A stretch of DNA of 34,625 bases from positions 1 to 34,625 of the forward strand of contig JAPUKU010000108.1 in assembly GCA_027295505.1 (NCBI GenBank). Direction: 5' to 3'. This DNA comes from Acidobacteriota bacterium. GTDB lineage: Bacteria; Acidobacteriota; Polarisedimenticolia; JAPUKU01. Each line of letters begins with the position of its first letter. Within the stretch, counting starts at the first letter, position 1. Of the stretch, positions 1 to 31,433 are shown one piece after another. A program made the translations under genes and the position numbers. The notes below the pieces were generated by a model. The model did no database searches and was not told the origin of the DNA. It saw nothing but the letters and a program-made list of their open reading frames with translations.

Positions 1-102
1 GTACCGGTGTCGGAGCCATGGGCTGGGCCGGCTCGGGCGGAGCCGCGGGCTGTACCGGTGTCGGAGCCCTGGGCTGGGCTGGCTCGGGTGGTGCCGTGGA
101 CT
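1..102. repeat. 51-bp tandem repeat, two copies at the window edge
   Basis: Positions 1-51 and 52-102 are two adjacent copies of a 51-base unit, matching at about 45 of 51 positions by hand count. They encode a 17-residue Pro/Ala/Glu/Gln-rich unit in the linker of the zinc-ribbon protein on the minus strand. More copies may lie beyond the edge. The period is a multiple of three, so copy-number change would keep the frame. It is a coding repeat, not a CRISPR array. Confidence 0.8.
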
Positions 103-229
103 CGGCGGGAGTTGGGGCGCTCAGCCTGAACATCGACCCGCAGGCACGGCACCGAACTGTGGCAGCCTTCCCGGGCGCCAGCACAGGTGCACGGTATTTC
201 TTAGCGCATCCTGGACAGGCAACTTTCAC
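1..229 (-). CDS. MJ0042-type zinc-ribbon protein, N-terminal part (runs off left edge)
   Basis: The first 76 codons of a gene that continues beyond the left edge. It starts with GTG at 229, whose GTGA overlaps the TGA stop of the upstream CheW-like gene. The protein opens with a zinc-ribbon carrying CPGC at residues 5-8 and CRAC at residues 27-30, with the pattern of the MJ0042 family (CPxCxxxY, then CxxCG.xF). After about residue 36 it becomes a Pro/Ala-rich linker with a 17-residue repeat. In this family the ribbon is usually followed by a linker and a variable C-terminal domain, often a membrane or effector domain, which is not visible here. Its role is unknown; its coupling to cheW suggests that it belongs to the chemosensory cluster. 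Codons were read by hand from the reverse complement. The zinc-binding call is fairly sure; the function is not. Confidence 0.75.
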   Translation of the reverse strand, partial: MKVACPGCAKKYRAPVLAPGKAATVRCRACGSMFRLSAPTPAESTAPPEPAQPRAPTPVQPAAPPEPAQPMAPTPV

Positions 230-885
230 GAGGCTGGGTCCGCCGCGGCCCCGGCCGGAACGAGACGTTCAAGATCGATGAGAGAGACGACCTGCTCTGC
301 CACACGCGCCACCGCACACACGGCCTGAGAGGCGCCGAGAGCAGACGCAGGCGCGCTCAAGCCCTCCAGCTCGTCTGCTGGCAGGACCTTGAGCACCTGG
401 TCCACGACCATGCCGTAGCGCTCGCCTTCAATCACCACGACTACAATGCGGCCACCGCGCGCCGGTGCCGCCCCCAACAAGATACCCATGTCCACTACCG
501 TGACCGCATGCCCGCGGAGAAACAGCACGCCGCGCACCGCTGCCGCGCTACGTGGCAGAGGCGCGACATCTTTCATGGGCAGGACCTCTTCAATGCTGGA
601 GATCGGCAGGGCGTAGAGGGAATCGGTAACTTTCACGATCAGCTGGGTGTCGCGCACCTCCGCGGTTGCCGGTGCTCCTACCGGAACTGTCGACGACCCC
701 GGAGCCGGCTCATCGCTGCTGGAGCGCACCAGAGGCGGCAGTAGATCCGTGAGCACCTGCGGCTCAGTTGCCCTGGGCTCCAGTCCGGCGGTAACCGTAT
801 CTTTCTCAGGAGCTGTCGGCGTGTGAACCACCTTGCGCGCCCGCAGCCGGGCAGAACTGCGGCCTTTTTGCCGACGCTGGCTCAT
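226..885 (-). CDS. CheW-like scaffold protein
   Basis: A 219-residue protein. Residues 1-80 form a basic, low-complexity leader (RRQKGRSSARLRARK) and a Pro/Ser-rich stretch; residues 80-212 form a CheW-like beta-barrel domain. Recognisable pieces are YALPISSIEEVLPM, the RGVLFLRGHAVTVVDM turn typical of CheW (RGxxxxRGxxVPVVDL), and GMVVDQVLKVL. CheW proteins link receptors to CheA kinase at the inner face of the membrane. The start at 885 overlaps the cheA stop as ATGA, so the two are translationally coupled and probably made in fixed ratio. The roughly 80-residue N-terminal extension is longer than in normal CheW proteins (about 150-170 residues in all). No chemoreceptor gene lies nearby, so its signal input is unknown. 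The family call is firm; the particular pathway is inferred. Confidence 0.88.
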   Translation of the reverse strand: MSQRRQKGRSSARLRARKVVHTPTAPEKDTVTAGLEPRATEPQVLTDLLPPLVRSSSDEPAPGSSTVPVGAPATAEVRDTQLIVKVTDSLYALPISSIEEVLPMKDVAPLPRSAAAVRGVLFLRGHAVTVVDMGILLGAAPARGGRIVVVVIEGERYGMVVDQVLKVLPADELEGLSAPASALGASQAVCAVARVAEQVVSLIDLERLVPAGAAADPAS

Positions 886-2840
886 GCCGGGGCTTCCTCT
901 CTAATCAGTCTGGCAACGTCCAGCATCAGCGCCACCCGATCCCCCTCCAGCTCCGCGGCGCCGTGCACAGCGGGATGTGATCCGAATCGCTGTGGCAGGG
1001 GCCGCATCATGACCTCGCGATGGCCGAGCAACGCATCGACCTCCAGACCAATAGCGCCTTCAGGCCCGCGGGCCACCACCAGAGGTTGCCGCGCCTGACG
1101 ACCCTCGCCGGACGTCCGGAAGCCCAGAAGGTCTCCCAGGTCAAAGACCGGGAGGGCAGCGGACCCCCGCAGCAGGAAGCGGTCCCGCTTCAAGGCGCTC
1201 AGGTCCTCTCCCTTGAGGACTCGGCTCTCGAGCACCGAATCAAGCGGAAGACCGATGACCGCGCCGGCCGTGCGCACCAGGAACGCCGGCACCACCGCCA
1301 GGGTTGCCGGCACCACGAGCTCAAAGGTAACCCCCTGTCCCGGAGTTGAATGGACTCGAAGCACACCTTTGAGCGCCAGAACCCGCTCCCTCACCTCGTC
1401 AAGCCCCACACCACGCCCCGAAGTCTCGCTCACCTTGGATGCGGTTGAGAGGCCGGGATGAAAGATCAGCTCGTTCAGGTGGCGGGGGTCGCTGTCCGGT
1501 TTCAGACCGTGCCTCACCGCCGCCTCACTCAGCTTCTGGAGATCGAGACCCCGTCCGTCATCCACGATGCGCAAGGTCACGTTGTGGCCGCGCGGCCATG
1601 CCTCGAGCGTGATCGTTCCGTGCTCCGGCTTGCCGGCCGCCAGGCGTTCCGCCGGAGGTTCGATGCCATGATCGACCGCGTTGCGCACCAGGTGCAGCAA
1701 GGGTGCCAGTAACGTGTCCGCGACACGCTTGTCCACCTCGGTGCCTACACCGAGACAGCGGAATTCGATCTTCTTGCCGGTGCGCCGGGTAAGGTCGCGC
1801 ACGGTGCGATCCAGTCGCGACGCAAGCCTGCGGATGGGGATCATGCGCAGCTCAACTAGGCTGGTGTGAAACTGACTCATCGCGTGGGCCAACCTCTCGG
1901 CCAGCCGACTGGCATTCTTCAGATCGATCGACGTTTCGATTGCGCCCGGTGTCCCCAGGAGAAGTTGCTCGAGACGACGGGCGTCGAGCGCCAGCTCGCC
2001 GGCCCGGCTCAAGACCGGATCGAGCCGTTCGATGTCAACCCGCACGGTATGTCCCAGATCTTCCTCGGCGGGCGGCGGTACCGCGGCCGGCTGGATCAGC
2101 GGCTGCACGCGGCCCACATTTCCGCTGGCCTGGCGGACAGCTTCTGGATCTCCCGCGATCAGGATCACGAACTCAGCGCCGTCGGCCGTGGTACGTTCCG
2201 GGACCGACGCAATCACCTCGCCCGCCGGCTCCAACCGGCCTAACAGATCCTGAAGACCGGAACTCATTTCCTCGAGGCTCCAGCAGGCCCGCACCCTGCT
2301 GAGTGGAGTCTGCCGGCGGAGATGAAAATCAAGGCGGCTCTCTTCGTACTGGCTGAGCACCGAACGCAGCGAGGCCTCATCCACTGCAGGTGGCACGCTC
2401 TGCTCAGCAGGCACCTGCGCTGGCTCGTTTGCTGCCTGTCCCACCTCGGGAGGACACACTCCCACCAGCGGATCGGGGCTGGGGCTTTTCCCTTCCGCGA
2501 GCTGCCGGACCTCGGCCTGAATGGCCCGGCACGCCTCCCGCAGCCAGGAACAGATCTCGGGGTTCCAGGCCTGTTTGCCGAGCCGCAGGCCATCGAGACT
2601 ATCCTCCAGCTGGTGGGCGGCCGCCGAGAGGCCCTTCAGATCGCTCATGCCAGCCAGCCCTTTCAAGGAATGGGCATGCCGGAATAGCGCATGAAGCTTC
2701 GGCGGCCGGGCCTCAGCACGGCTCGCGTCCGCCTCCAGATGATCGATTCCGTCCCAGAACGCCTCGAGCAATTCCTCCGCCTCGGCGCAGAAGTCCCTGA
2801 GCACGGTGCTTTTAGTCCGCATCGTCAAATAGTCACCCAT
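882..2840 (-). CDS. cheA: CheA-family chemosensory histidine kinase (first copy)
   Basis: A 652-residue kinase. Domains in order: HPt (P1) at about 10-115 with the phosphorylatable His57 in HSLKG; a Pro-rich linker; a 160-250 module starting LSQYEESRL and ending GEVIASVP, which resembles the middle module of CheA/FrzE-like kinases of gliding bacteria; a dimerisation helix pair at about 265-345; an HATPase core with N box HLVRNAVDHG (Asn387), DDGRG (427-431) and GRGVGL (475-480); and a CheW-like C-terminal domain at 515-652. All catalytic motifs are intact and there is no fused receiver. It would pass phosphate to a receiver, most simply the DUF4388-receiver protein just upstream. It overlaps the following cheW by four bases. 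The start is ATG at 2840; an in-frame ATG at 2822 is also possible. It is unlike the second CheA at 28316, so the two are not a recent duplication. Confidence 0.93.
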   Translation of the reverse strand: MGDYLTMRTKSTVLRDFCAEAEELLEAFWDGIDHLEADASRAEARPPKLHALFRHAHSLKGLAGMSDLKGLSAAAHQLEDSLDGLRLGKQAWNPEICSWLREACRAIQAEVRQLAEGKSPSPDPLVGVCPPEVGQAANEPAQVPAEQSVPPAVDEASLRSVLSQYEESRLDFHLRRQTPLSRVRACWSLEEMSSGLQDLLGRLEPAGEVIASVPERTTADGAEFVILIAGDPEAVRQASGNVGRVQPLIQPAAVPPPAEEDLGHTVRVDIERLDPVLSRAGELALDARRLEQLLLGTPGAIETSIDLKNASRLAERLAHAMSQFHTSLVELRMIPIRRLASRLDRTVRDLTRRTGKKIEFRCLGVGTEVDKRVADTLLAPLLHLVRNAVDHGIEPPAERLAAGKPEHGTITLEAWPRGHNVTLRIVDDGRGLDLQKLSEAAVRHGLKPDSDPRHLNELIFHPGLSTASKVSETSGRGVGLDEVRERVLALKGVLRVHSTPGQGVTFELVVPATLAVVPAFLVRTAGAVIGLPLDSVLESRVLKGEDLSALKRDRFLLRGSAALPVFDLGDLLGFRTSGEGRQARQPLVVARGPEGAIGLEVDALLGHREVMMRPLPQRFGSHPAVHGAAELEGDRVALMLDVARLIREEAPA

Positions 2841-2874
2841 GACCTGCCCGCAGGGCGGACGGTCTACCCGGTTT

Positions 2875-2903
2875 TATTTAGTGTCCGGATTGAGGCTTTT
2901 CAA
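2875..2903 (-). promoter_or_regulatory. Candidate internal promoter for cheA (first copy)
   Basis: The 111-base gap between the DUF4388 gene and cheA is the largest inside this cluster. On the minus strand it holds TTGAAA (2903-2898), a 17-base spacer and TAAATA (2880-2875). The -35 matches consensus at 5 of 6 positions, but the -10 only at 3 of 6. It may give cheA-cheW its own transcription; this is weak evidence. Confidence 0.35.
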
Positions 2904-2951
2904 CCGACAAGCAGCTGCACTGGAAGAAGATCCTCGGGGAACCGGAGCGGC

Positions 2952-4634
2952 TCAGCCCGCGACTGGAGAGGCGTTGACGCGCTGCTGGAGGGCGGCGTTT
3001 TCGAGGGACAGCCCGAGCTGGACCAAGAAGATCTCGAGGCTGCGTAGATCCGGAAGCGGGGTGCGCCCCTTGGCATTGTCAACGTAAAGGAGGGCGATCA
3101 CCTGGCCGGCGGCAACGAGCGGCATGAGCCCGTACTGAGTGGGGCGCAGCGGCCCGAGCGCTTCCACGATGGGCATCGCCCCAGGCTCCTCTTCGGGCGA
3201 GCCGATTCGCAGCGTGCGGTCGGAGGCCGTAGCCACAAGGAGCGGATTCTCGTCGGCATCGAACGACAGCTTGCTGACATTCGTCTCCACGTTCGATTCT
3301 TCGCCGGTGGGACCAAACCCGCCGAAGGCGACGTACCGGTGGCGGCGGCGCACGAACAGGACTGCTCGCTCCAGGAACTCGGAGGCCACGCGCAAGACCA
3401 GGATCCAGGCCTCGGAGGGATTCTCCGGCTGCCGCAGTTCACCCATGAGGCCGCGCAGGAAACCGACGGGATCGGTCACCCGCCGGCCGCTGCTTCCGGA
3501 TGAGGTACCGGGTTCGAGGCCGGCAAGGGGATCGTCTGGATCCGCGTTGGAGCGTCTCGGCCCGCTACGTATCTGCCACACGAGGGTGTGCGCCAGATCC
3601 TGGATCGCTGCCGGCAGCGCCCCCAGCGGTGTCGCGGTCAGATCCGGCTTCGAGACCAGAGCCTCGATCGGCAGTCCCTGAGTCTCCTGACGGTACTCAT
3701 CCTGACGACCCGCGCACAACCCGATCACGCGTGCCTGGATTCCATCCTGCATCAGCAGGCGCGTGAATTCGATGCCCCCTAGAAATCCTTCACCCGAGCT
3801 GTCCGGCATCAGGAGATCCACAATAACGATCGGCTTGCTACCCCCTTCAGTCCACTCTGTACAGATGCCGAGCGCCTCGGTCGCTCCGGAGGCGGTGGAG
3901 ACCCGGAACCCCTCGCTCTCCAGCTCGGTGGCAAGACGGGATCGATAAAGGGCCTCATCGTCCAGGATCAGAACCCTTGTGGCCTCCGGCGGATCGCTCT
4001 GGGTCTGAGGCCCACCCACGCTGGCCCTCCGGCGGGCCGGCTTGGCGGGAGGACCTTCACCGGGGCCGGGCACCGGATCCTCGGGCGCCGCAGGCGGCTC
4101 TGGGACGGGCGGCTCCCCCAGCCCCCGCACCGCCTCATCGACCTGGCGCGTGGCTTCAATCAGAAGATGCTGCGGACTGATCCCCTCGGTGTGGATCCAG
4201 CGCCCCGAGCGCCGGGCGTTTCCGAGCAGCGTGGCTTCCTCGATGAGCTCAAACGAGAAGTTGCCGCTGTCGAAACCAAACAGCTCTCCGATCGTGGTCT
4301 GGATCTCACGGCTCTGCACGGCACGCAGGGCCTCCGCGTCCACATCCGTGTTCTCAATCAGGAATGCTGCCGGATCCACGGAGCCGTCGGCCGGAAATCC
4401 GCGCAGCGCGGCCGCCGCCTGCTCACGCCCCATGAGGCGGTGTTCGACCAGCAAATCGTCAATTCGCCCGCTGCGTGTCGGAGTGCCAGCCGCGACGATG
4501 CAACCGTCACGAAACGCCACCCAGACTTGGCCCGTCGCCACCCTCAGTCGCAGGAGGCCCGTGCGGTGGCTGAGGTTGATGATCTGCAGGATGTCGGAGA
4601 GCGGCAGATCCTCCAGGTTCCCGATGAGGCTCAT
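2952..4634 (-). CDS. DUF4388 / receiver / GAF-like response regulator
   Basis: A 560-residue, three-part cytoplasmic protein. Residues 1-170 match the DUF4388 (PATAN-like) type: opening MSLIGNLEDLPLSDILQIIN, then TGLLRL and a FRDGCIVAA strand. Residues 170-215 are a Pro-rich linker. Residues 218-355 form a receiver with acidic pair Asp225/Asp226, phospho-acceptor Asp273 in VIVDLLMP, and Lys329 in SKPD. About eight extra residues (DSSGEGFLG) sit just after the acceptor Asp loop. Residues 385-550 look like a GAF-type sensor fold (AVLFVRRRHRYVAFGGFG, then GQVIALLYVDN). The next gene downstream is cheA, 111 bases away, so it is a likely phosphate target of that kinase. Its start overlaps the nusB stop as ATGA. 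No DNA-binding or enzymatic output domain is visible, so the output is unknown. The receiver and DUF4388 calls are solid; GAF is likely. Confidence 0.85.
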   Translation of the reverse strand: MSLIGNLEDLPLSDILQIINLSHRTGLLRLRVATGQVWVAFRDGCIVAAGTPTRSGRIDDLLVEHRLMGREQAAAALRGFPADGSVDPAAFLIENTDVDAEALRAVQSREIQTTIGELFGFDSGNFSFELIEEATLLGNARRSGRWIHTEGISPQHLLIEATRQVDEAVRGLGEPPVPEPPAAPEDPVPGPGEGPPAKPARRRASVGGPQTQSDPPEATRVLILDDEALYRSRLATELESEGFRVSTASGATEALGICTEWTEGGSKPIVIVDLLMPDSSGEGFLGGIEFTRLLMQDGIQARVIGLCAGRQDEYRQETQGLPIEALVSKPDLTATPLGALPAAIQDLAHTLVWQIRSGPRRSNADPDDPLAGLEPGTSSGSSGRRVTDPVGFLRGLMGELRQPENPSEAWILVLRVASEFLERAVLFVRRRHRYVAFGGFGPTGEESNVETNVSKLSFDADENPLLVATASDRTLRIGSPEEEPGAMPIVEALGPLRPTQYGLMPLVAAGQVIALLYVDNAKGRTPLPDLRSLEIFLVQLGLSLENAALQQRVNASPVAG

Positions 4635-5122
4635 CGACGCTCCTCCGCTTCCCCTGCCAGCACATGCTCGAGCAGTTCGAGCATGTGCACAGGCTCCGAC
4701 ATCTCGGGAGCGTCCAGACCGACAATGCGCTCCCGCAGCTGATCGAGCACTCCGTTGATGAACTGTCCGGAATCCTCGCTGCCGAAGCGCTTGGCGATCT
4801 CGATGGCTTCGTTGATCACCACCACCCGAGGGGTGTCCGGCTGAAAGAGCATCTCGTAGAGCGCCATTCGCAGCAGGTTTCGGTCGACCACAGGCATACG
4901 ATCCAGGCGCCAGTGAGCGCTGGTGCGCGCCAGCAGAGTGTCGAGTCGCGGACGAATCTGTACCGTTCCTTGGAAGAGATCTTCCGCAAATTGCTTCACG
5001 TCATCGCCCACCGTGTGGCTCTGCCAGAAGAGCGGCATGACCTCCTGGGGCTTCTGATCGGTCATGTCGACCTGAAATAGCATTTGAAGCGCAAACTCAC
5101 GTCCTCTGCGGCGCAGGCTCAT
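4631..5122 (-). CDS. nusB: Transcription antitermination factor NusB
   Basis: A 163-residue, all-helical RNA-binding protein that with NusE (S10) binds boxA RNA and supports rRNA transcription antitermination. It opens SLRRRGREFALQMLFQVD, the typical N-terminal arginine-rich first helix, and carries the conserved core WRLDRMPVVDRNLLRMALYE and the ending VVINEAIEIAKRFGSEDS. Length is normal to slightly long. It lies three bases downstream of ribH, a very common ribH-nusB order in bacteria, and overlaps the DUF4388 gene by four bases. It is transcribed with ribH from the promoter near 5653-5681. The identification is secure. Confidence 0.96.
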   Translation of the reverse strand: MSLRRRGREFALQMLFQVDMTDQKPQEVMPLFWQSHTVGDDVKQFAEDLFQGTVQIRPRLDTLLARTSAHWRLDRMPVVDRNLLRMALYEMLFQPDTPRVVVINEAIEIAKRFGSEDSGQFINGVLDQLRERIVGLDAPEMSEPVHMLELLEHVLAGEAEERR

Positions 5123-5125
5123 GGT

Positions 5126-5605
5126 CTATCTCCGCAAGCGTCGCGCCAGCTGGGCCATCTCGACGGCCGCACGCGCGGCGTGGCGTCCACGGTTCCCGGC
5201 ACTGCCCCGTTCGGAGCGGGCTCGAGCCTGCTCCAGTGTCTCGGTGGTGAGCACTCCCAAGCTCACCGGCACGCGGGTCTCCCCCGCCACCCGGCTCAAG
5301 GCGTTCACGACCTCGTGGCCCAGGATGTCGTGATGGGAAGTTTCGCCTTTGACGATAACACCCAGCGCAACCACGGCATCCACGGTGTCGCTCTCGGCAA
5401 GCCACCGCGCCGCGAGCGGAATCTCGAACGCCCCCGGGACGCGAACGACACGCAATCCCGGTTTGGTGGCGCCGAGTTCTACCAGACAGTCGAGTGCATC
5501 CGCAAGCAGATCGTTCACAATCTCCTCGTTGAAACGCGCGGCAACTACGCCAATGCGCAACCCACGGGCCGACAGATCCACATCACGGGGTAAGTTCGAA
5601 CCCAT
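5126..5605 (-). CDS. ribH: 6,7-dimethyl-8-ribityllumazine synthase
   Basis: A 159-residue enzyme of riboflavin synthesis. It condenses 5-amino-6-ribitylamino-uracil with 3,4-dihydroxy-2-butanone 4-phosphate to form lumazine. Family motifs: GVVAARFNEEIV near residue 19, VRVPGAFEIPLAA (54-66), ALGVIVKGETSHHD (80-93) with the catalytic His at 91 or 92, PVSLGVLTTET, and a C-terminal AAVEMAQLARRL. The usual GxTxHF(E/D) here reads GETSHHD, a mild variation. The ATG at 5605 has a GGAGA ribosome site about seven bases upstream. It is the first gene of the ribH-nusB-DUF4388-cheA-cheW series. Other riboflavin genes are not in the window. Confidence 0.96.
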   Translation of the reverse strand: MGSNLPRDVDLSARGLRIGVVAARFNEEIVNDLLADALDCLVELGATKPGLRVVRVPGAFEIPLAARWLAESDTVDAVVALGVIVKGETSHHDILGHEVVNALSRVAGETRVPVSLGVLTTETLEQARARSERGSAGNRGRHAARAAVEMAQLARRLRR

Positions 5606-5652
5606 CGAATCTCCGCATCTTTCGATCCTGCAAACAGTTACCCAGAGTTCAA

Positions 5653-5681
5653 ATTTTAGGTTCCGGCCAGGGCCGGGTCAA
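5653..5681 (-). promoter_or_regulatory. Candidate sigma70-type promoter for ribH-nusB cluster
   Basis: On the minus strand TTGACC (5681-5676), a 17-base spacer and TAAAAT (5658-5653); each hexamer matches consensus at 5 of 6 positions. The expected start is near 5646, about 40 bases before the ribH ATG. The -35 overlaps the stop codon of the upstream membrane-protein gene. The spacer contains the inverted repeat CCGGCC-n2-GGCCGG (5663-5676), which could be an operator or a hairpin from the upstream transcript. Confidence 0.6.
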
Positions 5682-6430
5682 GGAGTGCCCCCCAGGACCG
5701 CCAGGAGCAAGCGGCGCCAGGGAGCGGCAAGGACAGTCTTGAGAACGGCGTCGAGGAGCACCCCCCCGAGGCCCGCCCACAGGAGCGGCCAGCAGATCGG
5801 GTGCGCCGGCTCGGGGCGCGGAGGGATGCGGGCCAGAAGGGGTCGCGCCAGGGCCGTGCCCAGGGCGATGTAGGAGACGACCCGGACCAGGGCCCAGGGA
5901 GGCCACCCGAGCACCAGCACGGCGGGTACCCCCCCTCCCAGCCGGCACAGGCTCGCCACGTAGTAGGACATGTAGTTGAGTTGGGCCGCACCGAGCACCA
6001 GGGCGCCCAGACCTCCCGTTGCTACAGAAACCAGAGAAAACAGGGCAAACACCAGCGCGTGGCGGGGCAGGAACAGGGCCGGTGAGCCTTCCGGCCCCTC
6101 CCCCGTCCTCACCCATTGAACGCTCTCTTCGGCGTACTGGCGGGAACGCAGGATGGCGGCCTCCGCTTCGGGCTGCCAGAGCATCGACACGGCGGTGGCG
6201 CACAGGATCAACGCCACGGCCCACACCAGAACCGAGCTCAGTGCGCTGCGATCGTCCCCCCTGCGCACGGCAGAGGCAAAGACCGGAAACAGGGGCGCGG
6301 CCAGCAGAAACGGCAGGAGGGCCGCAGGGCTCCACCGGAAGGAGAGCAGGAAAATGGCCGCCGCCGCCGGCGCGGGCACCAGGATCACCAGCGCACGACG
6401 TACCCTGCAGAGCGGCAACGACACGCTCAC
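5678..6430 (-). CDS. Polytopic membrane protein of unknown function
   Basis: Not recognised. A 250-residue, strongly hydrophobic protein with about six predicted membrane segments: near residues 10-30, 33-53, 62-82, 120-150, 160-180 and 212-245. The central stretch HALVFALFSLVSVATGGLG and the following LNYMSYYVASL look like the most characteristic part. The loops are Arg-rich and Pro-rich (RIPPRPEP). It starts with GTG at 6430, overlapping the PfkB kinase stop as GTGA, so it is coupled to mtnP-pfkB. No catalytic motif or transporter signature was seen. Its base composition matches the neighbours. The coding call rests on clean overlap, a long open frame and plausible membrane topology. A link to nucleoside or sugar movement would be guesswork from neighbourhood only. 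Confidence 0.7.
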   Translation of the reverse strand: MSVSLPLCRVRRALVILVPAPAAAAIFLLSFRWSPAALLPFLLAAPLFPVFASAVRRGDDRSALSSVLVWAVALILCATAVSMLWQPEAEAAILRSRQYAEESVQWVRTGEGPEGSPALFLPRHALVFALFSLVSVATGGLGALVLGAAQLNYMSYYVASLCRLGGGVPAVLVLGWPPWALVRVVSYIALGTALARPLLARIPPRPEPAHPICWPLLWAGLGGVLLDAVLKTVLAAPWRRLLLAVLGGTP

Positions 6431-25302: not shown

Positions 25303-25331
25303 TTGCAGCGACGCAACCTAGAGCCTAAATT
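25303..25331 (+). promoter_or_regulatory. Weak candidate promoter of the cheR operon
   Basis: Plus strand TTGCAG (25303-25308), a 17-base spacer and TAAATT (25326-25331), about 32 bases before the ATG at 25363. Only 3 of 6 and 4 of 6 match consensus. Chemotaxis genes may use another sigma factor; no clear sigma28 or sigma54 site was seen in this 134-base divergent gap. Confidence 0.3.
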
Positions 25332-25362
25332 CGGCGTGGCTCCACCTTACACCCGTCCATTC

Positions 25363-26202
25363 ATGCCAAGCATCAGCATCGATCCACTCGCCGAGATTGC
25401 CCGACATGTTGAAGAGCGCCACGGCATCGATTTCGGCCGCTACAAACCACGCTGTCTGATGCGCCGGCTGAACGTGCGGATGCGCGCCGTGGGCGCCGAT
25501 GACCTGGAGGCATACGCCGCCTATCTGGTCTCACATCATGAAGAGGCGGACCGGCTCGTCGAGGCCCTGGCCATCAACTTCTCATTCTTCTACCGGGATC
25601 GGGGGCTGTTCCGTATCCTGGGCGAGCAGGTGCTCCCCGACCTGGTGCGACGGTTTCCCACGGGCCCCCTGCGTATCTGGTCGGCCGGCTGCGCGGCAGG
25701 CGAGGAAATCTACTCGCTGGGGATTCTCGCCCTGGAGACCCTGGCCGAGCGGGATCATGGCCGTCTGGTGCTGATCGGCACGGACATCGACCCGCCGGCC
25801 CTGGAGGAGGCCAGGGAGGGCATTTATAACCGGTCCAAGGTTACATCTCTTGACAACCCCTTGATCGAGCAATATTTTCACCCTGATGCAGCAAGTGGAA
25901 TGTTGCGGGTGAGAGATGCGTTGCGCACGCGTGCCCAGTTCCGGCGCGCCGATCTTCTGGGGCCAACTCCCTACCGTGGCGTCTCCCTCATATGTTGCCG
26001 AAACGTGATGATTTACCTGCAGCCACAACATCAGGAACGCATCCTGGAGCACCTCGCCTCGGCACTGCGGCCCGGCGGGGTTCTCGCGCTGGGGCGCGTC
26101 GAGCGTCTCACAGGCGACAGCCGCCGCTGGTTCGACACGGTGGACGCTGCCGAGCGTGTCTACCGGCGTAAGTGCATGGCCGGGGAATCACAATGCAGCT
26201 GA
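25363..26202 (+). CDS. cheR: CheR chemoreceptor glutamate methyltransferase
   Basis: A 279-residue SAM enzyme that methylates glutamates of chemoreceptors. It has an N-terminal helical domain (1-75) and a Rossmann domain with [15 protein letters not shown] (107-121, the SAM loop), [18 protein letters not shown] (138-155) and [10 protein letters not shown], the CheR hallmark. The usual NVTSFFR near residue 72 reads [12 protein letters not shown] 25363 is chosen; an earlier TTG at 25303 would add unlike residues and lies inside the candidate promoter. No clear ribosome site precedes it. First gene of the chemotaxis operon; its only in-operon receptor is the MCP just downstream. No CheB esterase is present to undo its action. 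Confidence 0.94.
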
Positions 26203-27437
26203 AGCTCGCTTTTGCCTTTCTGTGCGTGGCCGGGGCCGTCCTGGTGTCGAATCTGCTGGTCAGCGCTTTCGTTCCATCCGCTAAACACCCGCTCTTTCAC
26301 ATGGTGGGGCTGGCCTGCACCGACATTCTCATCGGCCTGGGCGCGGCCCACTACCTCTCCCGGTATTTCACGCGGCACATCAAAGCGCTCGCGGCGACCA
26401 GCACCATCATCAGCCAGGGAGATCTGACGCAGCGCGCTTCCCTGGACAGCGACGACGAGGTCGGGGATCTGGCGCGGGCCTTCAACATCATGCTCGACAA
26501 CCTGATTAAGGTGGTGCGAGAGGTATCCTCCACGGGCCGCACGATCTTCGACTCGGCCCAGTCCCTGTCCGCCACGGCCGAGCAAATGAACGCCTCTACC
26601 CAGGAAATCTCTTCGACGATTCAAAACATCGCCCAGGGCGCCGAGAACCAGGCATCCATGGTCAACAAGACCTCCAAAATCACCAAGGCCCTGGCCAGTT
26701 CGGTCGAGGAAATCGCCCGCAAGGCGGAGCTGGTCAACGAGAGGGCCACCGAGTCCGGCTACAAGGCAAAACAGGGTGGAGAGTTTGCCAACCTGGCCAT
26801 GGAAAAAATCACCGAGGTCGCGGAGCGCATTCAGGGGACGAAAGACGCGGTGGAGGGCTTCCGAGCCCGGGCGCTCGAGATCAACAAGACCGTCGATTTC
26901 ATCACCACCATCGCCTCACAGACCCACCTGCTGGCTCTCAACGCCGCCATCGAGGCGGCGCGGGCTGGCGAACAGGGCCGGGGCTTCGCCGTGGTGGCCG
27001 AGGAGGTCGGCAAGCTGGCTGAGAACGCCAAGGGATTTGCCGATCAGATTTCAGAGCTCGCCGGCCGCATCAACAACGAATCGGAGAGCGTTCTCAACTC
27101 GATGACTGAGTCGACACGCGCCGCCCGCGAGGGCCGCGAGGTCGTGCAGGAAGCGAACCGCACGCTGGAGGAGATCGTCAGCGCGGTGCTGACCACGGTG
27201 GAGGCCGTGCAGGAGATCTCCCAGCTCACTCAGGCCCAGACCCAGGGAGCCGCGGAGCTCGTACAGGCCATCGAGGAGATCTCGAAGATCGCCGAGGACA
27301 ACGCCGCCGGCACACAGGAAACTTCCGCGGCCACCCAGGAGCAGACAGCCTCGATGCAGGAGCTTTCGGGATCGGCGCAGGCCCTGGCACGCACCTCGGA
27401 CACTCTCAAGGGACTTGTCTCGGTGTTCCGCATATGA
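26193..27437 (+). CDS. Methyl-accepting chemotaxis protein with minimal periplasmic part
   Basis: A 414-residue receptor. Two membrane helices (about 4-27 and 36-54) are separated by only about eight residues, so there is essentially no ligand-binding domain. A HAMP-like region follows (about 55-105, with [19 protein letters not shown]), then a long coiled-coil signalling domain. The hairpin tip is [19 protein letters not shown], then [20 protein letters not shown]. The receptor would sense membrane state, cytoplasmic signals or a partner protein. There is no CheR-docking pentapeptide at the C-terminus (ends VSVFRI). Two highly conserved tip positions differ (Asn to His, Arg to Gly). ATG 26193 is preferred because GGGGAA lies nearby; earlier GTG 26172 and ATG 26175 exist. 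It overlaps cheR by ten bases and cheW by four. Confidence 0.92.
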
Positions 27438-27916
27438 CAACCGCCGCGGCACAGCAGCTGAATCTCGAGTTCACCATGGCGCGGGAGCGATTCGCCCTCG
27501 ATGCCGCTCTGATCCAGGAGATCACCGAAGTTCCGGTTGTGCAAAGGGTGCCCAAAGCGCCCGCCGTGGTCGCGGGACTCGCCGATATCCGGGGCCGTGT
27601 GGTGACCCTAATCGATCTCGAGCACGTGTTCGGTGTCGATCAGCGTTCCGAGGGTCAGCCTGTGGCGCTCATCCTGGCCCCGCCCGACGCGCATCTCGGC
27701 CTCCTGGTGCACGGCCAGCCGCAGGTCGTACGCCTGGATCTGAGCACCGCCGAACCCGCGGGCGGACTCATCGAAAGCACCTTGCTCGCATCAGACAAAC
27801 TTTATAACATCGTTAGCCCTCGCCGGGTTCTCGCCTACTGCGAGAAGCAGATCCTCGATGTATTCCGGATCGTCAGTGGGGACGGACAATCCACGCCATC
27901 AGGGAGGCACGCATGA
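27434..27916 (+). CDS. cheW: CheW adaptor protein
   Basis: A 160-residue CheW domain protein that couples the receptor to CheA. Features: [22 protein letters not shown] at the start, [20 protein letters not shown] in the middle, which is the RGxxxxLxDL pattern, and [15 protein letters not shown] then [19 protein letters not shown]. It is normal in length, without the long leader of the CheW-like gene at 226-885. ATG 27434 overlaps the MCP stop as ATGA, and it overlaps cheY by four bases, so MCP, CheW and CheY are translated as a coupled set. Identification is sure. Confidence 0.92.
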
Positions 27917-28287
27917 GCAATAAAGTCCTCATCGTCGACGATGCTCTCTTCATGCGCTCGATGATCAAGGACATCCTGGTCAACTCCGGAGAGTTCGAAG
28001 TTGCTGGTGAAGCCAGCAACGGCCGTGAGGCCGTGGATCGCTACGAGGAGCTACAGCCCTCACTGGTGACCATGGACATCGTCATGCCGGAAATGGACGG
28101 CATCGAGGCGACCAAGGAGATCCTCCAGCGCGACCCCAAAGCGATCGTGATCATGTGCAGCGCCCTGGGCCAGGAGGCACTGGTCATCGAGTCGCTCGCA
28201 GCCGGCGCCAAGGATTTCATCGTTAAACCCTTCTCGGCGGAGCGGGTGCTCAAGGTCATTCGCAGCATTCTCTCATCGCAGTCCTGA
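27913..28287 (+). CDS. cheY: CheY single-domain response regulator
   Basis: A 124-residue receiver, the expected soluble target of the CheA at 28316. Acidic pair Asp9/Asp10 in VLIVDDALFM, phospho-acceptor Asp55 in VTMDIVMPEMDG, Ser83 in MCSALGQE and Lys105 in FIVKPF, so all active-site residues are present. The GEASNGREAVDRY stretch and MCSALGQE are like CheY of Thermotoga and Firmicutes, fitting the CheC/CheD content. ATG 27913 overlaps the cheW stop as ATGA and has AGGGAGG upstream inside cheW. It would act on a flagellar motor or another target that is not in the window. Confidence 0.96.
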   Translation: MSNKVLIVDDALFMRSMIKDILVNSGEFEVAGEASNGREAVDRYEELQPSLVTMDIVMPEMDGIEATKEILQRDPKAIVIMCSALGQEALVIESLAAGAKDFIVKPFSAERVLKVIRSILSSQS

Positions 28288-28290
28288 GGC

Positions 28291-28305
28291 ATCCCGCCCC
28301 GGGAT
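28291..28305. other. Small hairpin between cheY and cheA
   Basis: In the 28-base gap, ATCCC-n5-GGGAT forms a 5-base-pair stem. No U-run follows. It could tune the cheY to cheA expression ratio by RNA processing or by hindering initiation, but a stem this short may be chance. Confidence 0.25.
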
Positions 28306-28315
28306 TCCTACGAGC

Positions 28316-30298
28316 ATGGACGCCCGAAAATATCTCGATCTGTTCCTTTCCGAAGCGCGGGAACATCTAGATCAGATCGCGCGCATAGGCCGCGAGCTCT
28401 CAGCTTCCTCCCCTCCCGAGTCCCTGCACGCCCTGTTCCGCTCGTTTCACTCGCTCAAGGGCATGGCGGCTTCCATGGAGTTCAAGTCCCTCTCCGAGCT
28501 GGCGCACGCCGTGGAGGATCTTTATGACCAGGCGCGCCAGGGGAAGAGAGCGATCGATGCCGAGCTCAGCGAGATCACGCTCGATGCCGTCGACCTGATC
28601 ACCACCCTGATCGATGAAATTGTCGCCAACGGACAGTCATCCTCCTCCACGGAAGACCTCACCGCCCGGGTGCGCGCGTTGCTTGCGGGCACCGCTCCCT
28701 CAACCGGAGTCGATAACTCCCCGGGAGGCGGTGGATCCAATGCGCGCGACGGGGGTGAAGGCGTCCCGGCACCGCAGGCTCCACCCTCCGGAGCACAACC
28801 CGCCGCGTCCGGCGACGCTGTTGACAAGACCTCCGCGTCCTCCGGCGCCTCCGCCGGAACGATCACCCTGGAGGTGCACTTCGGGGTGTCGACCGGCGCA
28901 CCCCTGCCGGCGGCGCGAGCCATGGTCGCCCTGAAGCGCCTGCAGACCCTTGGCGCCGTGGATCAGTGTGACCCCGATCCGGCCCAGTGGGCCGGATCCG
29001 CCTTCGCCGGCAAGGTGAAGGTCAGGCTCCAATCCAGCCTCACTCCCGAAGCCATCATCCGTGAGATCACCGCTCTTGCCGACATCAGCACCTGCCAGGT
29101 AAACCCTACGGAGAAGACAGGCGCCCGTCCGGCGTCGGCCGCCGTACGGCCTGCCTCGTCGACGATCCGGGTGCGCACCGACGTGCTCGACCGGCTCATG
29201 GACGGCGTGGGCGACATGCTCGTGGCCTCGGCCCTGGTCGAGCAGCAGCTTCCCCGTTCCCCGGCGAGCACCCCGGTGGTGCAGAGACTCAAGCGCGCCC
29301 TGACGCGCCTGCACGATGACGTTCTGGAACTGCGCATGGTGCCGTTCGATTTCATCGCGCAGCGCTTCTACCAGTCGGTGAGGCACCTGGCCCAGAACCT
29401 AAGAAAGAAGGCCTCGCTCGAGATCAGCGGCGCGGATGTGCGCATGGACCGCGCCATGCTCGAGGAGCTAGTGGATCCGCTCAATCACATCATACGCAAC
29501 GCCATCGATCATGGAGTGGAAGACCCGGAACAGCGTGCCGCCGCCGGTAAGCCGGTGGACGGACGAATCCGGCTGGCGCTCGAGAGACAGGGAGAGGTCG
29601 TGCGCGTGCGGCTGTCTGACGACGGCCGCGGCATGGACCCGGCACGCATTCGCGAGGCGGCGGTGCGTAAGGGATTCGTGACGGAGGATCACGCCCGTGC
29701 TCTGAGCGAGGAAGACGCTCTCATGCTGACCACGATCCCCGGATTCTCGACCGCCGACAAGCTCAGCGAGATCTCAGGGCGCGGCGTCGGCATGGACGTC
29801 GTGCGCACCCGCATCGAGAGTCTGGGGGGCCACATGAGGATCCTCTCCCGGTTCGGCGAGGGAACCGAGATCGAGATGGTGCTGCCGCTCACGGTCGCGG
29901 TCATCGACTCACTGCTCCTGCGACTAGGCTCCGAACTGTACGCCGTTCCCATTCACTCGGTGCAGCAGACGCTCGAGGTACACCCCGATCAGGTCCAGTA
30001 CTCAAACGGCAACGCCGTGCTGCGTTGGGCCAATCACACGGTGAACCTCAAGGCCCTTCGCGACCTGCTCGGTGAAGGAGACGCGGGTGCGTGGTCAAGC
30101 ACTTGCCCTACCGTCGTGTATGAGGCCGAGGGGCAGATGTTCGGACTGGGAGTCGATTCGGTGATCGGCAAACGCCCGATCGTCGTCAAACCGCTCAAGA
30201 GCCCGCTCGAGAACCTGCGTGAGTACTCGGGGGCCACGGTCCTCGAGGACGGAAAGATCGCGCTCATACTGGACTTGGCAAACCTGGCAGGCATGTGA
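28316..30298 (+). CDS. cheA: CheA chemotaxis histidine kinase (second copy)
   Basis: A 660-residue kinase. HPt at 1-120 with His45 in FHSLKGMAA; a Ser/Gly/Pro/Ala-rich linker (125-180); a P2-like CheY-docking domain (about 182-265: TITLEVHFG, RAMVALKRLQTLGAVDQ, then KVKVRLQS); dimerisation (285-350, VRTDVLDRLMDGVGDMLVAS); HATPase with N box IIRNAIDHG (Asn395), DDGRGM (435-440) and GRGVGM (488-493); and a CheW-like P5 (525-660). All motifs are intact. The P2-like domain, lacking in the first CheA, fits a partnership with the adjacent CheY. It lies 28 bases after cheY. Identification is secure. Confidence 0.96.
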   Translation: MDARKYLDLFLSEAREHLDQIARIGRELSASSPPESLHALFRSFHSLKGMAASMEFKSLSELAHAVEDLYDQARQGKRAIDAELSEITLDAVDLITTLIDEIVANGQSSSSTEDLTARVRALLAGTAPSTGVDNSPGGGGSNARDGGEGVPAPQAPPSGAQPAASGDAVDKTSASSGASAGTITLEVHFGVSTGAPLPAARAMVALKRLQTLGAVDQCDPDPAQWAGSAFAGKVKVRLQSSLTPEAIIREITALADISTCQVNPTEKTGARPASAAVRPASSTIRVRTDVLDRLMDGVGDMLVASALVEQQLPRSPASTPVVQRLKRALTRLHDDVLELRMVPFDFIAQRFYQSVRHLAQNLRKKASLEISGADVRMDRAMLEELVDPLNHIIRNAIDHGVEDPEQRAAAGKPVDGRIRLALERQGEVVRVRLSDDGRGMDPARIREAAVRKGFVTEDHARALSEEDALMLTTIPGFSTADKLSEISGRGVGMDVVRTRIESLGGHMRILSRFGEGTEIEMVLPLTVAVIDSLLLRLGSELYAVPIHSVQQTLEVHPDQVQYSNGNAVLRWANHTVNLKALRDLLGEGDAGAWSSTCPTVVYEAEGQMFGLGVDSVIGKRPIVVKPLKSPLENLREYSGATVLEDGKIALILDLANLAGM

Positions 30299-30319
30299 GA
30301 AAGAACAAGGGAGGGAACG

Positions 30320-30931
30320 ATGCTTTTTTGCGATCTGGATAACCGCCAAGTGGACGCGCTGCGGGAAGTGGGCAATATTGGCGCCGGTCATGCCGCCACC
30401 GCCCTGTCCCAGCTCGTCGGCCGTTCCGTGAGCCTGTCCGTTCCCAAGGTCGATGTGGTTCCCTTCCCGCGCATCTGTGCCCTCCTGGGCGGGCCGGAAA
30501 CGGAAGTGGCCGCCCTCTACATGAAGGTGTACGGGGACACGAGGGGCAATATACTCATCGTCTTTTCGCCGGACAATCTGGCAACGCTCGCGGGGCAGAT
30601 GCTCGGCAAGCCGGTGTCGTCGGTGCACTCCCTGTCGGCACTCGAGCGCTCTGCGATGCTGGAGCTGGGAAACATCCTGTCTTCCGCCTACCTGACCTCC
30701 ATCAGCCAGCTCCTGCACCTCAGCCTTATCCCCTCAGTTCCTTCCCTGGCCATCGACATGGTCGGGGCGATACTGGAGGCACCGATTCTGGAGATTAGCC
30801 GTGTGGCGGACACGGCCCTGGTGCTGCAGACCGAGTTCCAGGACACCAACAACGCGTTCGCCGGGCATTTCTTCCTGCTCCCGGATCCGCAATCTCTCGA
30901 CACTATGCTGGACGCTCTTTCCCGTTCGTGA
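30320..30931 (+). CDS. cheC: CheC chemotaxis phosphatase
   Basis: A 203-residue CheC/CheX-family protein that dephosphorylates CheY-P and binds CheD. Two copies of the active-site signature ExxN followed by Pro 23 positions on: Glu16/Asn19/Pro42 and Glu115/Asn118/Pro141, matching the CheC family consensus. The start ATG at 30320 has a strong GGGAGGG site just upstream (in the AAGGGAGGGAACG run). It follows cheA by 21 bases and is one base from cheD. CheC plus CheD without CheZ fits a Bacillus/Thermotoga-like adaptation scheme. Both sites look intact, which argues for an active phosphatase rather than a FliY-like or degenerate form. Confidence 0.93.
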   Translation: MLFCDLDNRQVDALREVGNIGAGHAATALSQLVGRSVSLSVPKVDVVPFPRICALLGGPETEVAALYMKVYGDTRGNILIVFSPDNLATLAGQMLGKPVSSVHSLSALERSAMLELGNILSSAYLTSISQLLHLSLIPSVPSLAIDMVGAILEAPILEISRVADTALVLQTEFQDTNNAFAGHFFLLPDPQSLDTMLDALSRS

Positions 30932-30932
30932 A

Positions 30933-31433
30933 ATGGCCATCCAGACCGCTGCGATACTCGAGCAACCGGTACCCATGGGCCGGCTGCTCGTCTGTCCCGT
31001 GCCGGCGGTGTTGACCGTGGTCGGACTCGGATCGTGCGTGGCGATCTTCCTGCACCATCCTGATCACCGCATTGGCGGACTCGCGCACGCCCTGCTGCCC
31101 TCGGGAAAGCGCTCCGAGCGCGAGCGCACCCCCGGAAAGTTCGTCCCTTCAGCCATCGAACTCATGCTTCAGAAGTTCGATGACCTGGGTGTGCGCGGCA
31201 AAGGCCTGGTCGCGAAGCTGGTGGGCGGAGCCTCGATGTTCGTAGGCGCAACCCGTGAGCGCCAGGGCATTGGAGACCGCAACATCCATGCGGCCCAGAA
31301 GGTGCTCGCCGAGCGCGGGATCCCGGTGGTGGCGAGCGATACCGGAGGTCACAGTGGCCGCAGCCTGCGAGCCTACACCCAGGACGGCCGGCTGGAAGTA
31401 AGCACACTTCGACAGCCGCCGCAGGTGCTGTGA
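30933..31433 (+). CDS. cheD: CheD chemoreceptor glutamine deamidase
   Basis: A 166-residue enzyme that deamidates receptor glutamines to glutamate and is tuned by CheC. Catalytic Cys35 lies in GLGSCVAIFL and His52 in GGLAHALLP, the usual Cys-His pair. KLVGGASMF and GIGDRNI are further family pieces. ATG 30933 is chosen because it follows the cheC stop with one base between; a longer frame reaching 30801 lies inside cheC and is not conserved. It is the last gene of the operon. No U-rich terminator was found in the 34 bases before the convergent thioredoxin gene. Confidence 0.94.
   Translation: MAIQTAAILEQPVPMGRLLVCPVPAVLTVVGLGSCVAIFLHHPDHRIGGLAHALLPSGKRSERERTPGKFVPSAIELMLQKFDDLGVRGKGLVAKLVGGASMFVGATRERQGIGDRNIHAAQKVLAERGIPVVASDTGGHSGRSLRAYTQDGRLEVSTLRQPPQVL

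Follow-up and report, generated by a model that had tools for sequence, protein, structure and literature searches.

Chemosensory systems related to the locus

The chemosensory gene clusters of the so-called beta-group of Geobacter comprise cheA, cheW, cheB and cheR, with no mcp gene, and preliminary mutants of one such cluster link it to the extracellular matrix rather than to polarity (PMC2577667). EsnB and EsnC represent a CheW and a CheA, respectively, their genes being separated by that of an ATPase, and they work with an unlinked MCP, EsnA, and a diguanylate cyclase (PMC5585712). In Myxococcus xanthus, the receiver domain (REC) of RomR binds RomX, which in turn binds MglA-GTP (PMC12719032), and in cyanobacteria the motors of type IV pili are targets of PATAN-CheY proteins (PMC7690835). 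The locus described below shares features with each of these systems, and its counterparts in relatives also share one with the Che7 pathway of M. xanthus and its HEAT-repeat protein Cpc7 (PMC11514114).

A chemosensory operon divided between two contigs

The window, i.e., the whole stretch of 34,625 nucleotides that was analyzed, represents the entire contig C11 of an Acidobacteriota MAG (G000) made up of 259 contigs and 95.5% complete, so that genes scored as absent from this genome are provisionally absent. Near its start, all on the minus strand, the window encodes RibH (5126..5605), NusB (4631..5122), a DUF4388-REC-GAF regulator of 560 residues (2952..4634), CheA (882..2840), CheW (226..885) and the start of a zinc-ribbon protein (1..229), in agreement with the initial annotation. 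The nusB gene lies directly upstream of the regulator gene in the operon, with ribH upstream in turn, and cheW overlaps the cheA stop codon through an ATGA. CheA possesses Hpt (with an HSLKG motif at residue 57), dimerisation, HATPase and CheW domains, while a P2 domain was not matched in this protein. None of the cluster regulators received a specific name from NCBIfam, and scanning the window with Rfam and for tRNAs gave no matches.

Base 1 of the window is the end of contig C11 and falls within a 51-bp tandem repeat of the zinc-ribbon gene (1..102, no strand assigned), of which 4.4 copies are present on contig C29. When G000 was searched with window positions 1-5600, the first 124 bp of C29 (L012) were found to match window positions 1-124 with three mismatches, approximately 27 bp of this shared stretch preceding the start of the repeat, and no other contig of the genome matched. 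Since the overlap is inexact, the join rests on its terminal position, reading frame and synteny: the zinc-ribbon open reading frame remains open and in frame across the joined contigs, and continues on C29 (L012:1-1089) with a linker of Pro/Ala repeats, a degenerate receiver and a RomX-like domain. This gene is followed on C29 by genes for CheR (L012, 1104-1958), a receiver-containing CheB (1955-3085), CheY (3124-3528) and LeuS (3582-6089). As judged from these sequences, the cluster in the window and the genes on C29 form the upstream and the downstream halves, respectively, of one complete chemosensory operon. The cluster had initially been described as devoid of MCP, CheR, CheB and CheY; the latter three are encoded on C29, and their absence from the window is therefore an assembly artefact, while it holds for the MCP that G000 encodes none between nusB and leuS. 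Where genes appear to be missing at a contig end, the rest of the assembly needs checking.

Conservation of the cluster and its linkage to nusB

Homologous loci in other genomes were found by an alignment-based scan, a scan of the genome contigs with single proteins having returned no matches. The fuller clusters encode RibH, NusB, the DUF4388-REC-GAF protein, CheY, CheA, an ATPase, CheW, the zinc ribbon-REC-RomX protein, a HEAT-repeat protein, CheR and CheB; CheY and LeuS are encoded downstream of the cluster in some relatives, and the order CheA-ATPase-CheW is seen in L050, L080 and L083. In the Deltaproteobacteria MAGs L081, L084 and L085, an MCP gene follows cheW inside the cluster. Related genomes thus carry both MCP and CheY genes beside the cluster, an arrangement which the initial description had itself named as refuting it.

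The start of the regulator gene does overlap nusB, the two sharing an ATGA, and nusB is located upstream of the DUF4388 gene on 23 distinct contigs, the loci having been chosen by similarity of the DUF4388 protein alone. Such conserved adjacency would be in line with a regulator that acts together with NusB in transcription antitermination, as had been suggested; this functional coupling nevertheless found no support, and we regard it as extremely improbable, as the gap between the two genes ranges from -4 to +1700 bp with a gene intervening in some lineages, the other neighbours of the cluster are unrelated housekeeping genes (MTAP, PfkB, RibH and LeuS), and no Rfam RNA element lies within the window. 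The linkage is instead a co-location in an operon, which fits shared transcription.

One family of relatives (G011, G018, G033 and G027) yielded no genome match to CheA or to an MCP in any of its four searched genomes. The DUF4388 protein is nonetheless kept at nusB in all four, and the RomX protein follows it in three; in G027, where the DUF4388 gene is interrupted by the end of the contig, the RomX match is located on another contig. In the remaining three (L049, L051 and L048 of G011, G018 and G033, respectively), an intact-looking DUF4388 receiver is accompanied by an added methyltransferase-like gene.

The DUF4388-REC-GAF regulator

The regulator encoded next to nusB matches Pfam DUF4388 (5.4e-19) and Response_reg (9.4e-9). 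Its DUF4388 domain (residues 5-167; 4134..4622, minus strand), which we take to be equivalent to the PATAN domain from knowledge of the family and a match in Synechococcus, carries an alpha-helical insertion. A family profile of this insertion matches PilF of Thermus thermophilus (E=2e-13), and the insertion of the present protein searched alone gave no PilF match. DUF4388 is a widely used domain in this genome, with 11 matches on ten contigs, those of the present cluster included. The GAF domain (approximately residues 389-555; 2970..3470, minus strand) is assigned from homologues and predicted structure: it was not matched by Pfam in this regulator, but GAF_2 was matched by seven of twelve homologues and the predicted fold of the C-terminal part resembles GAF domains. 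The combination of a DUF4388/PATAN domain with a receiver, tied to a chemotaxis-like system, is shared with the cyanobacterial pilus regulators PixE and PixG, from which the present protein differs by its extra GAF domain.

In the receiver (residues 221-330; 3645..3974, minus strand), the DD acidic pair, the phospho-acceptor Asp and the Lys are kept, while the conserved T/S is replaced by Cys. Across homologues, key receiver residues are lost in several che-bearing relatives, whereas they look intact in che-less ones, a pattern which suggests that this receiver may not be the main target of CheA. The homologues concerned by this comparison include L053, L054, L056, L057, L058 and L080-L085.

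A RomX-like domain fused to a pseudo-receiver

A profile of the zinc-ribbon protein matches the RomX structure 8zna (E=7.6e-13) through its C-terminal domain. A profile of the RomX-like domain returned the same structure at E=1.1e-15, with the next match at 0.078, and the single sequence of the present domain did so at E=0.011. A structure search with a model of the zinc ribbon-receiver-RomX protein gave only receiver matches among the matches listed. RomX-domain matches were obtained in all 17 genomes searched, at least two of them in 15; a second such protein of G000, a GAF + RomX-like protein of 338 residues, is encoded on contig C200 (L134:4227-5243), unlinked to the operon. Of 16 distinct RomX-fused proteins, 15 have another residue in place of the phospho-acceptor Asp of the receiver, which is accordingly a pseudo-receiver.

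The likeness to the RomR/RomX-MglA system of M. xanthus, with its Frz input, extends to a receiver, a Pro-rich linker, a RomX domain, an mglBA operon, a chemosensory pathway as input, and surface motility as the proposed output. Yet RomR and RomX of M. xanthus are two distinct proteins, whereas here the RomX-like part is no small stand-alone protein but the C-terminal domain of a longer polypeptide, encoded in a che operon, that unites it with the pseudo-receiver and the zinc ribbon. Nor is this the layout of RomR, which has an N-terminal REC, a Pro-rich linker and a Glu-rich C-terminus, as here the linker comes before the REC and the protein ends in the RomX-like domain. On the basis of its predicted domains, the fusion of a RomX-like domain to a pseudo-receiver inside such an operon is new.

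Receptors and grouping of CheA

G000 encodes two MCPs. One, MCP2, belongs to a second, separate chemosensory cluster of the window (CheR, MCP2, CheW2, CheA2, CheC and CheD; 25303..31433, plus strand), which served as a comparator; the other is unlinked, on contig C24, and exhibits two predicted membrane segments and approximately 211 residues after the hairpin tip. MCPs form two classes, and those encoded within the Deltaproteobacteria clusters score 218-231 bits against the C24 MCP versus 88-97 against MCP2. In the cluster-bearing genomes with MCPs that were examined (the present one, families f6 and f9, G049 and G050), there is an MCP nearer to the long-coil C24 type than to MCP2. Furthermore, the CheA of the operon groups with nusB-linked CheAs, apart from CheA2 (tree support 0.999). 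Together, the similarity of the C24 MCP and the grouping of CheA fit an unlinked receptor, as is reported of EsnA in Geobacter, where class 40H is the one expected of the partner MCP, and the long-coil C24 MCP is likely to be the receptor of the operon, a pairing that is based on similarity and counts rather than on linkage.

The cluster had been called receptor-less, a designation which is not supported given that the unlinked C24 MCP is of the very type that Deltaproteobacteria MAGs encode in the cluster. One may still conceive of a kinase module that truly lacks a receptor, the MCP being replaced by a soluble partner such as the HEAT, GAF or DUF4388 protein, as the Acidobacteriota clusters include no MCP gene between nusB and leuS and several relatives encode a HEAT-repeat protein in the cluster. 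We consider this very improbable, however: the operon encodes CheR and CheB, which are known to act on MCPs; long-coil-type MCPs are carried by the examined cluster genomes, while the CheA-less family carries none; and the operon of G000 itself has no HEAT gene. The latter also sets it apart from Che7/Cpc7, which provides a precedent for the pairing of a HEAT-repeat protein with a chemosensory pathway that is seen in relatives.

Proposed output of the operon

Several observations bear on the output. G000 possesses its own mglB-mglA pair (an mglBA operon) on contig C140 and the type IV pilus marker PilM; Roadblock and small-GTPase matches were obtained in all 17 genomes, as was the pilus marker. 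FliG_C returned no matches in the 95.5%-complete G000. The earlier suggestion that the cluster controls something other than swimming therefore pointed in the right direction, FliG not being found and a pilus marker and a RomX-like domain being present. In a genome without a FliG match, the output of the second chemosensory cluster is probably not flagellar either. Elsewhere in G000, on contig C150 (L014:5654-7731), two CheW-like genes and then a gene for a protein that combines a receiver with a long Pro-rich tail lie upstream of a valyl-tRNA synthetase-like gene.

The reading we favour, and hold to be reasonably probable, is that the operon specifies a non-flagellar chemosensory pathway directed at the pilus or polarity machinery, its output being suggested by homology. 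The operon, located between nusB and leuS, supplies the DUF4388(PATAN)-REC-GAF protein, CheA, CheW, the zinc ribbon-pseudoreceiver-RomX protein, CheR, CheB and CheY. The long-coil C24 MCP, tuned by CheR and CheB, would serve as receptor and gate CheA via CheW; CheA would then phosphorylate CheY and possibly also the receiver of the PATAN protein, and the signal would pass to the type IV pilus/polarity machinery. There, the RomX-like domain, fused to a receiver that has no phospho-acceptor Asp, would engage MglA-GTP in the manner of the RomR-REC/RomX pair of M. xanthus, bearing in mind that homology to RomX alone does not establish MglA binding. In this scheme, we infer the pairing with the receptor, the phosphotransfer, the binding to MglA and the control of pili.

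A different output is suggested by the resemblance to the Geobacter beta-group/Esn system (GSU2220-GSU2222), a resemblance drawn from published descriptions of the latter: both have a cluster of cheA, cheW, cheR and cheB that lacks an mcp gene, a receptor that is (here, probably) unlinked, and an occurrence in deltaproteobacteria, and several Acidobacteriota relatives share the cheA-ATPase-cheW order. Given the reported effects of the former on extracellular matrix and the partnership of EsnB/EsnC with a diguanylate cyclase, the present pathway might control biofilm matrix or c-di-GMP, the role of the RomX-like domain then being that of a scaffold or GTPase adaptor with no part in polarity. 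This we judge rather unlikely, since the cluster encodes no diguanylate cyclase, the RomX publications examined describe it only as an MglA partner, and the Roadblock, small-GTPase and pilus matches extend to every genome searched. In comparison with the Geobacter system, G000 has no ATPase gene at that position, its cheA and cheW overlapping instead, and the publications examined mention no output of the RomX type.

Returning to the polarity-directed pathway, a more specific version may be put forward tentatively, namely that the nusB-leuS operon hard-wires CheA to MglA through a one-chain form of RomR/RomX, and that a core of PATAN and RomX proteins keeps working after loss of the kinase and receptor. 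The natural fusion of a receiver to RomX supports the proposed contact between RomR-REC and RomX. The outputs of beta-group/Esn-type clusters have been reported as largely unknown, and a RomX-like domain in such operons would offer a concrete and testable link that leads from CheA to MglA and to surface motility in bacteria other than myxobacteria.
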